Source: a virus
Reading direction: 5' to 3' (one strand)
Length of the DNA: 64,000 nt
Virus record (IMG/VR): IMGVR_UViG_3300044629_000131
Coordinates: 20,027-84,026 of that record
Shown here piece by piece: positions 10,686 through 55,376 of this stretch. Below the pieces are notes generated by a model. That model searched no databases. It was given only the letters and a program-made list of their open reading frames with translations, and had not been told where the DNA came from. The position numbers and the translations under genes are program-made. The stretch's first letter is position 1. Every line of letters starts with the position of its first letter.

Positions 10686-11093
10686 ATGAGCTTAGAAGAG
10701 AACATGGAAGAACTACTCAATATTGAGGCAGAGGTTATTGATGAACCGAAGCCTGTGAAGGTTGAACGTGAAGGTGACAAGGAAGACAAGATCAAAGACT
10801 ACGAATATACACGAGGGGAATTATACAACCTCATCAGCAAGGGTCAGGAGGCGGTACAAGGCGCCTTAGAGGTCGCACAGGAGAGCGGACACCCTAGAGC
10901 GTATGAAGTCGCTGTGAACGCCATGAAGCAGGTAGCAGACATGACTGACAAGCTTGTAGATCTTCAGAAGAAGATGAAGGATTTAGATGCCGAGAATAAG
11001 AAAGTTACAAACGTTACAAATAATGCCATGTTTGTAGGCAGCACAACTGAGCTTCAGAAGATGCTGAAGCAGATGGGAGGAGGCAAAAGATAA
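10686..11093 (+). CDS. gp16: Terminase small subunit gp16
   Basis: 135 residues. An acidic N-terminus is followed by a helical core (YTRGELYNLISKGQEAVQGA, VAVNAMKQVADMTDKLVDLQ) and a Gly/Lys end, the layout of T4 gp16. gp16 recognises concatemeric DNA and regulates the gp17 packaging motor. Here gp17 lies about 4 kb downstream, separated by structural, nuclease and small genes, unlike T4 where they are adjacent. Confidence 0.85.
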   Translation: MSLEENMEELLNIEAEVIDEPKPVKVEREGDKEDKIKDYEYTRGELYNLISKGQEAVQGALEVAQESGHPRAYEVAVNAMKQVADMTDKLVDLQKKMKDLDAENKKVTNVTNNAMFVGSTTELQKMLKQMGGGKR

Positions 11094-11645: not shown

Positions 11646-13030
11646 TGGCACAGTATAGCAAACACTACGAGGATTTCCTACCACAGGAAAAAACAAACTT
11701 TGAGGTAGTCATGATTGCCGACGCAAACGGCAATGTTGGGCCTGGTAGTTCTGGTTCTTCTGTATCTTTTAGTGAAACAGCAGTAGATGCTTTTGGTCGT
11801 CTCAAAGTTACCGAACCATTCACTCTTGGTGATTACAAGCACCTTTATGCTATTGACCCAAACTTTTTAGATAACCTAACTAATGGTGGCACAGCAACAT
11901 ATAATATCAATAAGGCTTGTGCTACTTTAGCAACCACATCAAACACCACTTCTCGTGCTGTTCATCAAACTAAATTTTATCATCATTACCAGCCTGGTAA
12001 GTCACAGATGATTTACAGTTCGGTATGTTTTGGTTATGCTCAACAGAATGTAACCAAAAGAACTGGATACTTCGATGATAGAGATGGTATCTACTTTGAG
12101 CAAGTTGGTGGTGCTACTGCCAACGGAACAACCAATGGCACTCTAAACTTTGTTGTTCGTTCTTATGTTAGCGGCACTGCTAGCGAAGCAACATTAGGAA
12201 CTTACAAAAGAAGAGTTCCACAATCAGAATGGAACATTGATAAGTGTGATGGAACTGGTGTTTCTGGTTTCAACATCAATACTTCAAAAACACAACTAGT
12301 TTATATTGACTTCCAATGGTTGGGAGTTGGTAGAGTTCGTTGTGGTTTTGTTCATAATGGGCAACTTATTCTAGCACACCAATATTATTGTTCTAATGAA
12401 CTTGATGAAGTTTATATCGCAAATCCTAATCTACCAGTAAGATGTGAGATACTAAACACAGGTACAACATCTGGTGGTTCATTTGATCAGATTTGTTCCA
12501 CTGTTATGTCAGAAGGTGGATATGTTGAAAGTGGTATTGACTTCATGTATATGATGACAGCATCTAGGTCAGTTGCTGGTGGTGCTACTCTACCTGTTTT
12601 GGCAATTCGTTTGAAGAATACATTTCAAACTTACCCCAACAGAATTTCGGTTAGGTTAAATAATATTGCTTTGTATCCTTCTGGAGAAACATTTTCATTC
12701 CAAATTGTTAAATTACCAAGTCAATCAAACTTGACTGGCACACTTAATTGGACCGATGTTGATACCAATAGTGGCGTTCAATATTCAGTTGGTGCTACTG
12801 GTTATACGGCAGGAAGTGGCGATGCTTTATTTGGTGGTTTTGTAACTGCTGGTTCGTCACAGAACTCTTTGTCGTCTGCTTCGACAGGTTCTATTTCTGC
12901 TGCCAAGAAAAACATTATTGTTCAAAATTTTGACTCTACTTCATCAGAAGTATATGTTGTGTTAGCAACAAATATTGGTAATAACTCTGGAACAATTAGA
13001 GCAGCACTTCAATGGAGGGAAATCTACTAA
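11645..13030 (+). CDS. Virion structural protein, beta-rich
   Basis: 461 residues. After a short N-terminal tail, residues about 42-75 read FSETAVDAFGRLKVTEPFTL and related sequence, a module seen in capsid or fibre-associated proteins of several marine phages. The rest is beta-rich with aromatic and Gly motifs and ends AALQWREIY. It lies between gp16 and gp17, where many cyanophages encode an unnamed structural protein. Likely a head decoration or tail appendage; I cannot decide which. Confidence 0.65.
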   Translation: MAQYSKHYEDFLPQEKTNFEVVMIADANGNVGPGSSGSSVSFSETAVDAFGRLKVTEPFTLGDYKHLYAIDPNFLDNLTNGGTATYNINKACATLATTSNTTSRAVHQTKFYHHYQPGKSQMIYSSVCFGYAQQNVTKRTGYFDDRDGIYFEQVGGATANGTTNGTLNFVVRSYVSGTASEATLGTYKRRVPQSEWNIDKCDGTGVSGFNINTSKTQLVYIDFQWLGVGRVRCGFVHNGQLILAHQYYCSNELDEVYIANPNLPVRCEILNTGTTSGGSFDQICSTVMSEGGYVESGIDFMYMMTASRSVAGGATLPVLAIRLKNTFQTYPNRISVRLNNIALYPSGETFSFQIVKLPSQSNLTGTLNWTDVDTNSGVQYSVGATGYTAGSGDALFGGFVTAGSSQNSLSSASTGSISAAKKNIIVQNFDSTSSEVYVVLATNIGNNSGTIRAALQWREIY

Positions 13031-13461
13031 TGAAAAACTATAAAGAAATCAAACATCTTGCTGAAGAAGCAAAGAAAAAAGAGAAAGAAGAAAAGCGTTT
13101 CTGTAAGCTCTGCCAAAAACCAGAGACAAGAAAAGAATGTTCCTATGGCGAGAAAGCATGGGATCGTTTCGCAGTTCCAGTTCAATCTATCAAAAGAGAA
13201 GAAGTAGAACTAGACGAAGCTGCTTGGACTAAAAAGGAGGGACAGAATAAGAATGGCGGTCTCAACGAAAAAGGTAGAAAGTCATACGAAAGAGCTAATC
13301 CTGGAAGCGACCTTAAGGCACCTTCAAAGAAAGTTGGAAATCCCCGCAGGGCGTCATTTTGTGCCAGAATGAAAGGACTAAAAAGTAAATTGACAAGTAA
13401 AAAAACAGCAAGGGATCCCGACAGCAGAGTAAATAAAAGCTTGAGGGCTTGGAACTGTTAG
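13030..13461 (+). CDS. DUF6321-like conserved marine phage protein
   Basis: 143 residues from the ATG at 13030, with GGAGG at 13014-13018 upstream; a start at 13012 would put that site inside the gene. The N-terminal half is a charged helix followed by a CxxC...C segment (FCKLCQKPETRKEC). The C-terminal half carries the conserved block WTKKEGQNKNGGLN...RRASFCARMKGLKSKL...DPDSRVNKSLRAWNC, which I associate with DUF6321. It is very basic, so nucleic acid binding is plausible. Function unknown. Confidence 0.65.
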   Translation: MKNYKEIKHLAEEAKKKEKEEKRFCKLCQKPETRKECSYGEKAWDRFAVPVQSIKREEVELDEAAWTKKEGQNKNGGLNEKGRKSYERANPGSDLKAPSKKVGNPRRASFCARMKGLKSKLTSKKTARDPDSRVNKSLRAWNC

Positions 13462-13463
13462 AT

Positions 13464-13510
13464 TTCATACCTTTTCATTCTTATAAATAGTAGTAATGAA
13501 AAGGTATGAA
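13464..13510 (+). repeat. 16-bp perfect inverted repeat enclosing a late promoter
   Basis: The arms 13464-13479 and 13495-13510 are exact reverse complements. The 15-base loop contains TATAAATA. The right arm contains the AAGG ribosome site of the next gene. See the matching finding. Confidence 0.9.
13482..13489 (+). promoter_or_regulatory. Consensus late promoter TATAAATA in a hairpin loop
   Basis: Exact T4 late consensus. The expected start, about six bases downstream, is near 13495, the first base of the right arm, so late transcripts would lack the left arm and leave the ribosome site free. Confidence 0.75.
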
Positions 13511-13511
13511 A

Positions 13512-13922
13512 ATGTCAGAGAAAATTTGTACTAGGTGTAAGAATTCAAAACCAAGAACACCAGAATATTTCCCACTTCACAATAAATGTAAAGATGGTTT
13601 AGATAGTTGGTGTAGAGCTTGTAGAGCGTCTTATCGTAGTGAAATAAACAGAGGAAAATTTAGAGGACAACTTACTGATGATGAGGTAAGAAAACTGAAG
13701 CAACAAATCACATGTGATATATGTGGTAAAGAAGATACTGGTGGATCCAAGAACAATAAACATCTAGGCAAAGTAAAATCTTTGGTTATGGATCATGACC
13801 ACCACACTGGAAAATTTAGAGGAATGTTATGTAACCACTGTAATAGAGGATTGGGCAACTTTTTTGATAATGTAAATACTTTGGAAAATGCCATTTTGTA
13901 CCTAAAAAAGTGGAATTGCTGA
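13512..13922 (+). CDS. Endonuclease VII-type HNH nuclease with zinc-binding N-terminus
   Basis: 136 residues from the ATG at 13512, seven bases after AAGG; an in-frame ATG at 13506 is too close to that site. The N-terminal CTRCKNSKPRTPEYFP...WCRACR is a CxxC/CxxC zinc module. The C-terminal half has CDICGKED...MDHDHHTGKFRGMLCNHCN, the His/Asn and Cys pattern of the recombination endonuclease VII family. T4 endonuclease VII (gp49) resolves branched DNA for packaging; many phage relatives are homing-like nucleases. It may be either. The hairpin over its ribosome site suggests late-only translation. Confidence 0.85.
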   Translation: MSEKICTRCKNSKPRTPEYFPLHNKCKDGLDSWCRACRASYRSEINRGKFRGQLTDDEVRKLKQQITCDICGKEDTGGSKNNKHLGKVKSLVMDHDHHTGKFRGMLCNHCNRGLGNFFDNVNTLENAILYLKKWNC

Positions 13923-13976
13923 CAAAAACCTGCCAAAAAATTTGTTGTTATTATAATTAGTTTTGAGGTTTCCATT

Positions 13977-54244: not shown

Positions 54245-54405
54245 TTACCTGCTTAGTAACTAACTGGGGTGTAACCATAGTCCTAGGTCTTCTGCTAACT
54301 GCTTCTGAGTGGTTGGCAAAAACAAAAAGATTTGAGGAAAATGGATTGCTAGATTTAATTACAAATTTCTTAAAAATTCTATTGCGTAAGGGAGACCATA
54401 AATAG
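54241..54405 (+). CDS. Small membrane protein, possible holin-like partner
   Basis: 54 residues: one membrane helix (WGVTIVLGLLLTASEWLAKT) and a basic amphipathic tail (LLDLITNFLKILLRKGDHK). Its TAG stop lies in the loop of the terminator. Size and form fit a holin-type peptide, but it is far from the lytic enzymes, so this is only a suggestion. Confidence 0.5.
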   Translation: MITCLVTNWGVTIVLGLLLTASEWLAKTKRFEENGLLDLITNFLKILLRKGDHK

Positions 54406-54419
54406 GGTCTCCCTTTTTT
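54388..54419 (+). terminator. Terminator with a late motif in its loop
   Basis: Stem AAGGGAGACC/GGTCTCCCTT (54388-54397 with 54406-54415) and a T run to 54419. CATAAATA at 54397-54404 spans the loop. Confidence 0.9.
54397..54404 (+). promoter_or_regulatory. Late motif CATAAATA in the terminator loop
   Basis: The motif starts at the last stem base and fills the loop. Initiation near 54410 would fall in the right arm. It also contains the TAG stop of the preceding gene's reading frame. Confidence 0.45.
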
Positions 54420-54426
54420 ATAAATA
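54419..54426 (+). promoter_or_regulatory. Consensus late promoter TATAAATA
   Basis: Exact late consensus immediately after the terminator T run and 36 bases before the ATG at 54462, giving a tandem arrangement with the motif in the loop. Confidence 0.7.
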
Positions 54427-54461: not shown

Positions 54462-55376
54462 ATGACCCTGTATAGTCGCGCTGAAACAAACGCACAAAGC
54501 TTGACAGTCCTAAACACCACAGAGAAGAACTCTGTTGATAAGTATGACTGGGATAATACCCTGATTGTTGATGGTGACAGCACAGTTGCTGGTGCTCAGG
54601 GTTATGCTACTGCTGCTCGCAGAACTGTTTATATTGATGACGTAGAAGCAACCCTTGCTGAAAACAGAGAGCGTGGTTTAACTGCTCCTGGTTGGTGGGA
54701 GTATATGACTTATGTTGATTCTGATGGTAAGACCCGCCACAAAGCACAGCACCTAGTAGCATTCAAAGATGCTCCTGTTAATACTGCTGACCTTGATGAC
54801 GTTGTTGCTGCTGACGTAGCATCTGCTATCACTATCTCGGTACAACCTGCTAACCAGTCAACACAAACACCTGCTGGTGGAATTCTTACTGTTACTCGCG
54901 CAGGAACAGCAGCATCTGGTACAGCTTCATACACGGGAGTAACTGGTACGGCTTCTGGTTCTGGAACTAACGCTACATTTACTGTAGCAAGAGCTGGTGG
55001 AGTTTACACTGTAACAGTAACCGCCGCTGGTTCTGGTTATGCTGCTTCTGAAACTATCACTATTCTTGGTAGTGCTCTGGGTGGTGTTGATACAACCAAC
55101 GATCTTACAATTACAGTTGCTACTGTTGCTACTGCTGCTGCTACATTCTCGGTTACTGCTGCTGCTTCAACTGGTTCTCTTACTTACCAATGGCAGCGTA
55201 AGACAAGCAGCACCGCTCGCTGGACAAATGTTTCTGGTGCTACGAGTTCTTCACTCGCTCTCACTGGACTTACCACAGCAGCTAATGGTTATGAGTATCG
55301 TGTCAAACTTACATCATCTGCTGGTGCCGAAGAAGTTATCTCTGACGCAGCAACACTAACAGTAACTGCGGCATGA
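54462..55376 (+). CDS. Ig-like virion protein sharing a domain with gp18
   Basis: 304 residues. The N-terminal domain (about 1-110) has DKYDWDNTLIVDGDSTVAGA, a ARRTVYIDDVEATL segment and GWWEYMTYVDSDGKTRHKAQ. Residues 153-228 form a beta module nearly matching the insert in gp18 (RAGGVYTVTVTAAGSGY, TITILGSALGG). Residues about 229-304 look like an Ig-like domain (TGSLTYQWQRKTSSTARWTN, YEYRVKLTSSAGAEEVISDA). A surface decoration protein, analogous in idea to T4 Hoc, is the best guess. Two late motifs precede it. Confidence 0.7.
   Translation: MTLYSRAETNAQSLTVLNTTEKNSVDKYDWDNTLIVDGDSTVAGAQGYATAARRTVYIDDVEATLAENRERGLTAPGWWEYMTYVDSDGKTRHKAQHLVAFKDAPVNTADLDDVVAADVASAITISVQPANQSTQTPAGGILTVTRAGTAASGTASYTGVTGTASGSGTNATFTVARAGGVYTVTVTAAGSGYAASETITILGSALGGVDTTNDLTITVATVATAAATFSVTAAASTGSLTYQWQRKTSSTARWTNVSGATSSSLALTGLTTAANGYEYRVKLTSSAGAEEVISDAATLTVTAA
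54918..55145 (+). other. Beta domain shared with the gp18 insert
   Basis: Encodes residues 153-228 of the 54462 product; counterpart of 17967-18197. The protein is strongly similar while the DNA differs at many third positions. Confidence 0.8.

Follow-up and report, generated by a model that had tools for sequence, protein, structure and literature searches.

Three homing endonuclease genes of T4-type phages offer the closest described parallel to the locus reported here. For I-TevI and segB of T4 and for mobE of the Aeromonas phage Aeh1, the ribosome-binding site (RBS) is hidden by a hairpin on readthrough RNA, and a late promoter gives rise to a translatable RNA (PMC2988022). I-TevI is also grouped with the T4 genes e, soc and 49 among the cases of masked starts; for these last three the start region is sequestered on long RNAs and, in the case of e, freed on late RNAs (PMC3014915). 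A further point of reference is the cyanophage enzyme F-CphI, which targets psbA and from which the DHHRN homing family was defined, and whose endonuclease VII (Endo VII) motif is C-terminal; across this group of proteins the motif is mostly N-terminal in resolvases and mostly C-terminal in homing and restriction enzymes (PMC6083498). The late promoter consensus of cyanophages has been given as NATAAATA (PMC2984593), and a leader hairpin has been reported for a different gene, psbA, in S-PM2d (PMC5931967).

The locus described here lies in a stretch of 64,000 nucleotides (the window) taken from an 84,026-base IMG/VR virus record with T4-like genes for terminase subunits, a tail sheath stabiliser and gp55, the last of these found in the same record as the hairpin that concerns us. 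The region is matched at the DNA level by 393 phage records, whose names are nearly all those of cyanophages. Like T4 I-TevI and segB and Aeh1 mobE, it combines a probable homing endonuclease gene with an RBS hairpin and a late promoter box at the hairpin. Unlike those genes, which belong to the GIY-YIG and HNH families and whose hairpins have been described on early and middle gene transcripts (PMC2988022), the window gene carries an Endo VII motif and is surrounded by virion and packaging genes, in a structural gene cluster, and its hairpin, box and coding sequence stay together at several insertion sites.

The hairpin and its endonuclease gene

On the + strand of the window, the sequence and a repeat search reveal a perfect inverted repeat at positions 13463–13511, whose left arm (13463–13479) and right arm (13495–13511) are complementary over 17 of 17 base pairs and enclose a 15-nt loop (an earlier note on this DNA had the perfect pairing and the loop length right, and gave the stem as 16 bp). 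A word search places the late-promoter box TATAAATA, which matches the cyanophage late consensus, at 13482–13489 within the loop, while the right arm holds the ribosome site AAGG (13501–13504) and an in-frame ATG at 13506, both box and ribosome site as the earlier note had read them. A second in-frame ATG of the endonuclease, at 13512, follows directly beyond the right arm.

The 17-bp repeat is the longest perfect one in the window (the runner-up has 12 bp), and in 150 first-order Markov surrogates of the window the longest perfect repeat had 15 bp, with none of 17 bp. Folding of the 101 nt around the hairpin gave −26.4 kcal/mol (z −3.42), a value equalled by 0 of 200 shuffles, and the hairpin score at ATAAATA sites was 18.5 here against a surrogate maximum of 13.5 (60 surrogates, 888 sites). 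An Rfam scan at E values up to 1 listed two matches, both of them to microRNA models and far under the gathering scores.

The word TATAAATA is not over-represented in the window (3 observed, 3.35 expected). The NATAAATA sites, 17 in number, all lie on the + strand, a raw count uncontrolled for strand composition, and 11 of the 17 fall 24–65 nt 5′ of a mechanically called ORF start. The distance from the box in the hairpin is 24 nt to 13506 and 30 nt to 13512; for seven further sites of the window it is 30–37 nt. Taking the geometry of T4 promoters (PMC2988020), we assume 13495 as the 5′ end of the late RNA; the box is so placed that an RNA started near this predicted position would be without the left arm. 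Elsewhere in the window, at 54388–54426, a terminator-like hairpin with ATAAATA in its loop is followed by TATAAATA 43 nt before the ORF at 54462, the same terminator-plus-late-box layout as at F-CphI.

The gene itself occupies 13512–13922 on the + strand, or begins at the in-frame start at 13506. Translated from 13506, the ORF matches Endonuclease_7 (PF02945, E 1.2e-15, residues 65–135 of 138), in line with its earlier description as an endonuclease VII-type gene. Close inspection reveals the conserved D, H, H, R and N residues and two CX2C pairs of a DHHRN enzyme: D94, H95, H97, R103, C107, C110 and N111 are invariant across the 15 sequences of alignment A1, the window protein included, as are C68 and C71 across the 16 sequences of alignment A3. 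The Endo VII motif lies at the C terminus, which is also its position in the DHHRN endonuclease clade (PMC6083498), and the gene is optional, as in the homing family of that name, being absent from close relatives (L190, L191, L194 and L198; labels of this form denote compared loci or contigs). The best match among solved structures is Hpy99I (E 5.2e-10, residues 4–134), and PADLOC labels the protein a type II restriction enzyme; the match to T4 Endo VII covers a core stretch only (query residues 89–119, E 0.18). The AlphaFold model has a mean pLDDT of 55.8. Because of the C-terminal layout of the motif and the D, H, H, R and N residues, we file the protein as a probable DHHRN-type endonuclease with putative cleavage activity. 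Its setting differs from that of Hpy99I, a Helicobacter restriction enzyme found beside a methylase (PMC6083498), in that the window gene is a phage insertion.

These features speak against the parallel with T4 gene 49 that the earlier note had drawn. Equivalence to the gp49 resolvase is rejected on account of the C-terminal motif, of Hpy99I as the best structural match and of the insertion described below: the gene 49 product is a junction resolvase with an N-terminal motif (PMC6083498), no full-length alignment to T4 Endo VII with the motif at the N terminus was obtained, and e, soc and 49 are resident phage genes, whereas the window gene is an insertion. On the same grounds, I-TevI, segB and mobE are the apt comparison. 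Across the 84-kb record, possibly a fragment, there is no further PF02945 match, and ~210 nt separate its gp55 and gp47 genes. In S-SRM01, a second Endo VII-motif gene located between gp55 and gp47 is preceded by a perfect 11-bp hairpin whose loop carries TATAAATA (L183 42259–42300, equal to S-SRM01 142259–142300); this hairpin has a score of 11, within the reach of chance, and there is no such match in the record of the window phage.

F-CphI of cyanophage S-PM2 resembles the window protein in its C-terminal motif (PMC6083498) and in having its own TATAAATA directly upstream. It differs in its target, psbA (PMC6083498), the window cassette being located at the end of a gene with a DUF6321 domain, and in the position of the box, which follows a terminator-like hairpin after psbA, whereas the window box lies inside an RBS-masking hairpin. 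Both at S-PM2 F-CphI (L270 544–577) and at its S-SRM01 homologue (L185 9793–9826), the T run of the terminator-like hairpin leads into TATAAATA. The window protein aligns with the S-SRM01 homologue only over the catalytic end, where 27 of 48 residues are identical. Each of the two endonucleases thus has its own late box and a hairpin that separates it from the upstream gene, seemingly a transcriptional barrier for F-CphI and a translational one in the window. In the psbA region of S-SRM01, an annotated endonuclease start between the two psbA pieces is located inside a hairpin whose loop begins with TATAAATA (L185 7727–7771), an arrangement that recalls the layout of I-TevI and may form part of an intron fold.

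Insertion at the end of the DUF6321 gene

The gene upstream of the hairpin (13012–13461, + strand) has a C-terminal DUF6321 domain (PF19846, 1.2e-21; PHROG families of unknown function) and ends ...RAWNC stop. At the empty sites L190, L191, L194 and L198, this gene is joined straight to the sequence found downstream of the endonuclease in the window. The window resumes the empty-site sequence at 13911 with 12 nt, TGGAATTGCTGA, that are the same at all four sites, and from 13920 the downstream flank is identical to theirs in 84–89 of 95 nt. The endonuclease therefore closes (13911–13922, + strand) with codons and a stop that were the native 3′ end of the DUF6321 gene and have been displaced; a near-copy of them, TGGAACTGTTAG, forms the present end of that gene at 13450–13461. 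Judged by these junctions, the endonuclease gene was inserted where the DUF6321 gene ends, at its 3′ side. Immediately 3′ of the cassette, a sigma-70-like match (CTGCCA, 16 nt, TATAAT) at 13930–13957 is largely present at the empty sites too, so the promoter of the downstream gene may have been spared by the insertion; the frequency of such matches in the promoter scan was not above chance.

The cassette is preceded by a replaced stretch of its recipient gene (13366–13461, + strand) that, compared with the empty sites, encodes nearly the same protein in different DNA. Window and L190 are identical in 191 of 192 nt before this tail and in only 60 of the last 96 nt, of which 30 of 32 codon products (stop included) are nevertheless equal; the empty sites L191 and L190 agree with each other in 89 of the 96. 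Since the window tail is nearer to those of other cassettes (81/96 for L010, 77/96 for L008) than to those of five empty sites (60–63/96), it looks like a co-conversion tract, and the 96-nt tail appears to have arrived together with the cassette. Co-conversion of flanking sequence is a recognised hallmark of homing (PMC2988022).

The same right junction is found in another context in L010 and L011 (with L222 and L223 as empty sites), and in L028–L030 a 27-residue remnant of the DUF6321 end follows the endonuclease. By eye, a DUF6321-like gene end precedes 28 of 31 distinct loci, the exceptions being L015 and L144, which have another tail in common, and L123, where there is no open frame; when ten sampled tails were checked against Pfam, eight passed the cut-off, L137 fell below it and L015 gave no match. 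The captured native end (TGGAA...) is clear only in the window lineage and in L010/L011, and the S-SRM01-type and terminase-side copies of the endonuclease have different ends. The tail comparison used 82 of 160 DUF6321 loci, three of them with an endonuclease and on contigs already known. For the terminase-side context (tails ...GERGLAARRRWKC), the median identities over 96 nt were 90 between cassettes, 83 between cassette and empty sites and 81 between empty sites (10, 27 and 11 pairs, each pair sharing 26 or more of 32 residues, and with L351 and L352 counted as empty yet remnant-like), and a recoding contrast between cassette and empty tails is unclear there. The corresponding medians in the S-SRM01-type context were 81, 70 and 80 (36, 508 and 1530 pairs, uncorrected for relatedness).

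Conservation and linkage of the hairpin

Relatives of the endonuclease were collected by a protein search, which gave 33 loci in viral contigs, and by an alignment search, which gave 78 loci, many on shared contigs (14 of the 78, namely L151–L154, L156–L159, L165, L167–L169, L175 and L176, were left out). The phage collection contributed one close relative, S-SRM01, in two records. The close clade comprises 28 distinct upstream regions, with duplicates counted once and L019 dropped because its start is cut off. A matching hairpin precedes the gene in 21 of these 28; the hairpin of the earlier note, with the late box inside it and the ribosome site that it masks, is thus kept as a unit in relatives. 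ATAAATA is found in or at the loop of 18 of the 21 distinct hairpins (L013, L018 and L025 deviate), and AAATA is invariant in all of them although loop length differs; in the cultured phage S-SRM01, which infects Synechococcus sp. KCZYC6, the stem reaches 20 bp (hairpin at L001 4012–4066). The right arm includes the start ATG itself in 16 of the 21 hairpins, where ribosome site and start would both be masked.

Seven regions are without the hairpin: that of L008 is decayed, L028, L122 and L142 have the box and the right arm without the left arm, and L024, L123 and L137 have none of these elements. At the position of the start codon, L011 reads ATA (688), L027 ATT (1001) and L142 ATC (3001), which suggests decay or unusual starts.

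Counted over all hairpins, 365 arm cells comprise 345 Watson-Crick pairs, 6 G-U pairs and 14 mismatches, and 9 of the 21 hairpins are fully Watson-Crick in the register counted. The paired fraction is 0.962 for a hairpin's own arms, 0.958 when arms are swapped within a length class and 0.772 when they are swapped across the two arm-length classes, which were assigned by us. Covariation by substitution between the arms is nearly nil across the 21 hairpins, and absent within an arm-length class. The length of a run of 4 or 5 nt is concordant between the arms in all 21, and an outer pair of the stem is T-A, A-T or G-C, depending on the locus. The concerted run length and the few compensated pairs, rather than rich covariation, argue for pairing of the arms as such. 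The earlier expectation that the arms stay complementary in relatives thus stands for 21 of the 28 regions, with seven lacking the hairpin and base-by-base covariation nearly absent.

In the tree, hairpin loci fall on both sides of the clade, which makes losses the simpler reading, albeit with few strongly supported branches (6 of 28 inner branches). Further out, ATAAATA was absent in 22 distant or partial upstream regions, some with guessed starts, among 34 regions inspected, and two regions of the distant set, L150 and L163, have other hairpins, with scores of 16.0 and 11.5.

The hairpin is tied to the endonuclease gene. Scanned for the exact paired-arm pattern, viral contigs yielded 12 stretches, all on contigs known for this endonuclease, and a scan for single arms returned 56, one of which (L034) is itself an endonuclease locus; of the 55 others checked, 48 were without a partner arm and the seven with one were all on endonuclease contigs already known. 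Because the complete hairpin was never found without the gene in either scan, we reject the idea that it is an independent repeat. Neither S-H9-1 nor S-RSM4 has the left arm behind the stop of this same gene for DUF6321, and it is missing at the empty sites L190, L191, L194 and L198 as well. Behind the DUF6321 gene of L273 (after 1488), the left arm and box are kept, the right arm is decayed and there is a trace of the endonuclease start, and behind that of L351 (after 1518) what seem to be the last codons of the endonuclease are kept; judged by sequence, both are apparent cassette remnants.

Control of the endonuclease start

We give a probability of roughly 70% to the reading that this is a homing-type cassette with its own late promoter and an RBS lock that entered a T4-like cyanophage at the 3′ end of its DUF6321 gene. 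On RNA reading through from the DUF6321 gene, the 17-nt arms would pair and bury the ribosome site, and the endonuclease would be poorly translated. From TATAAATA in the loop, the late sigma (gp55) complex would initiate a transcript near 13495 that, missing the left arm, would be translated. The protein would then cut DUF6321 genes at their native 3′ end; we infer that the replaced end would shield the carrier.

Computed folding is consistent with such a lock: at 25 °C, opening the start region would cost 20.1 kcal/mol on readthrough RNA against 4.0 kcal/mol on RNA assumed to begin at 13495. Across 20 of the 21 hairpin loci (L011 was left out), the cost is 8.4–27.2 kcal/mol on readthrough RNA and 1.3–5.1 kcal/mol on the late RNA as modelled. 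For eight loci that lack a sound hairpin, the cost on readthrough RNA is 3.6–12.2 kcal/mol, a range (L024 8.8, L008 12.2) with which the weakest hairpin loci (8.4 and 10.5) overlap. By sequence and computed folding, the RBS and/or the start codon would thus be masked on the long RNA.

The earlier note's proposal that the readthrough fold hides the ribosome site is in keeping with these values; its idea of gating between early and late expression is weakened. Given the virion and packaging neighbours and a further NATAAATA upstream of the cassette at 11089, the readthrough RNA may itself be late, and the lock may therefore insulate the gene from late readthrough rather than divide early from late. 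Most likely, the lock insulates the endonuclease from its late polycistronic message, and its own promoter is the main source of translatable RNA.

Of the competing explanations, translational coupling survives best, unlikely as we consider it. On this view the hairpin keeps the endonuclease off until a ribosome, on completing the DUF6321 gene, opens the left arm; expression would then track that gene, with a secondary role for the loop box. The DUF6321 stop codon (13459–13461) almost touches the left arm in the window, with 1 nt between them, and with a ribosome held at this stop, and the bases after it kept open, the computed cost drops from 20.1 to 3.8 kcal/mol, no higher than that on the late RNA; translation of the DUF6321 gene may therefore undo the lock. 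Moreover, in the distant relatives L139–L141 (~50% identity) the start of the endonuclease lies at the DUF6321 stop or within it, and such a hairpin is missing. Coupling does not, however, account for the ATAAATA kept in 18 of 21 loops, for a box placed 30 nt before the start as at other sites in the window, or for L028, L122 and L142, in which the left arm is gone and the box and right arm are retained. In several relatives, in addition, the start would still be costly with a ribosome at the stop, at up to 13.9 kcal/mol (the range across the 20 loci is 3.6–13.9).

It is less probable still that the dyad acts mainly as DNA, being an operator or recognition site of the endonuclease or a cruciform, with the enzyme repressing its own promoter as I-TevI represses its own late promoter via an operator (PMC2988022). 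Such a role would fit the conserved arm sequences and their near lack of covariation. It sits poorly with the three loci that lost the left arm yet kept the box and right arm, and a 15-nt loop disfavours cruciform extrusion. The least credible proposal is that the hairpin is a 3′ stem-loop of the upstream mRNA (a stability element or a terminator) that contains a late box by chance: it does lie directly 3′ of the DUF6321 stop codon, but it was found in 0 of 77 related DUF6321 loci among the matches listed (a ranked list of 80 minus L205, L208 and L232, hence not a frequency; three of the 77 have the short GGTATGA string only), and, as regards a terminator, no T run follows the hairpin on either strand and the terminator scan did not include it.

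Taken one by one, the elements proposed here for the locked cassette (control principle, endonuclease family, co-conversion) are already known. Among the matches listed in the open-access literature, excluding the original F-CphI and S-PM2 antisense papers, we found no such lock on a cyanophage or DHHRN endonuclease. A bolder reading, which we hold tentatively and at slightly short of even odds, is that the ~545-bp unit at 13366–13910 is a self-contained homing cassette that comprises a near-synonymously rewritten target end, its own late promoter, an insulating RBS lock and, in the window lineage, an open end capturing the last codons and stop of the target; it would be the natural equivalent of a gene drive with recoded rescue, present at several DUF6321 sites. 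If this is true, the rewritten target end would restore the protein and remove the cut site. Related phages offer this locus in filled, empty, decayed and hairpin-less form, so that what the lock does, and what the rewritten gene end does, can be put to a direct test.

Taken together, these findings suggest that the lock of T4-type homing endonucleases, a hairpin combined with a late promoter, also occurs on an Endo VII-motif endonuclease of cyanophages, and that it travels with the endonuclease gene, which apparently jumps between related cyanobacterial viruses. The comparison with F-CphI further suggests that such endonucleases separate themselves from the host operon via differing hairpin solutions.
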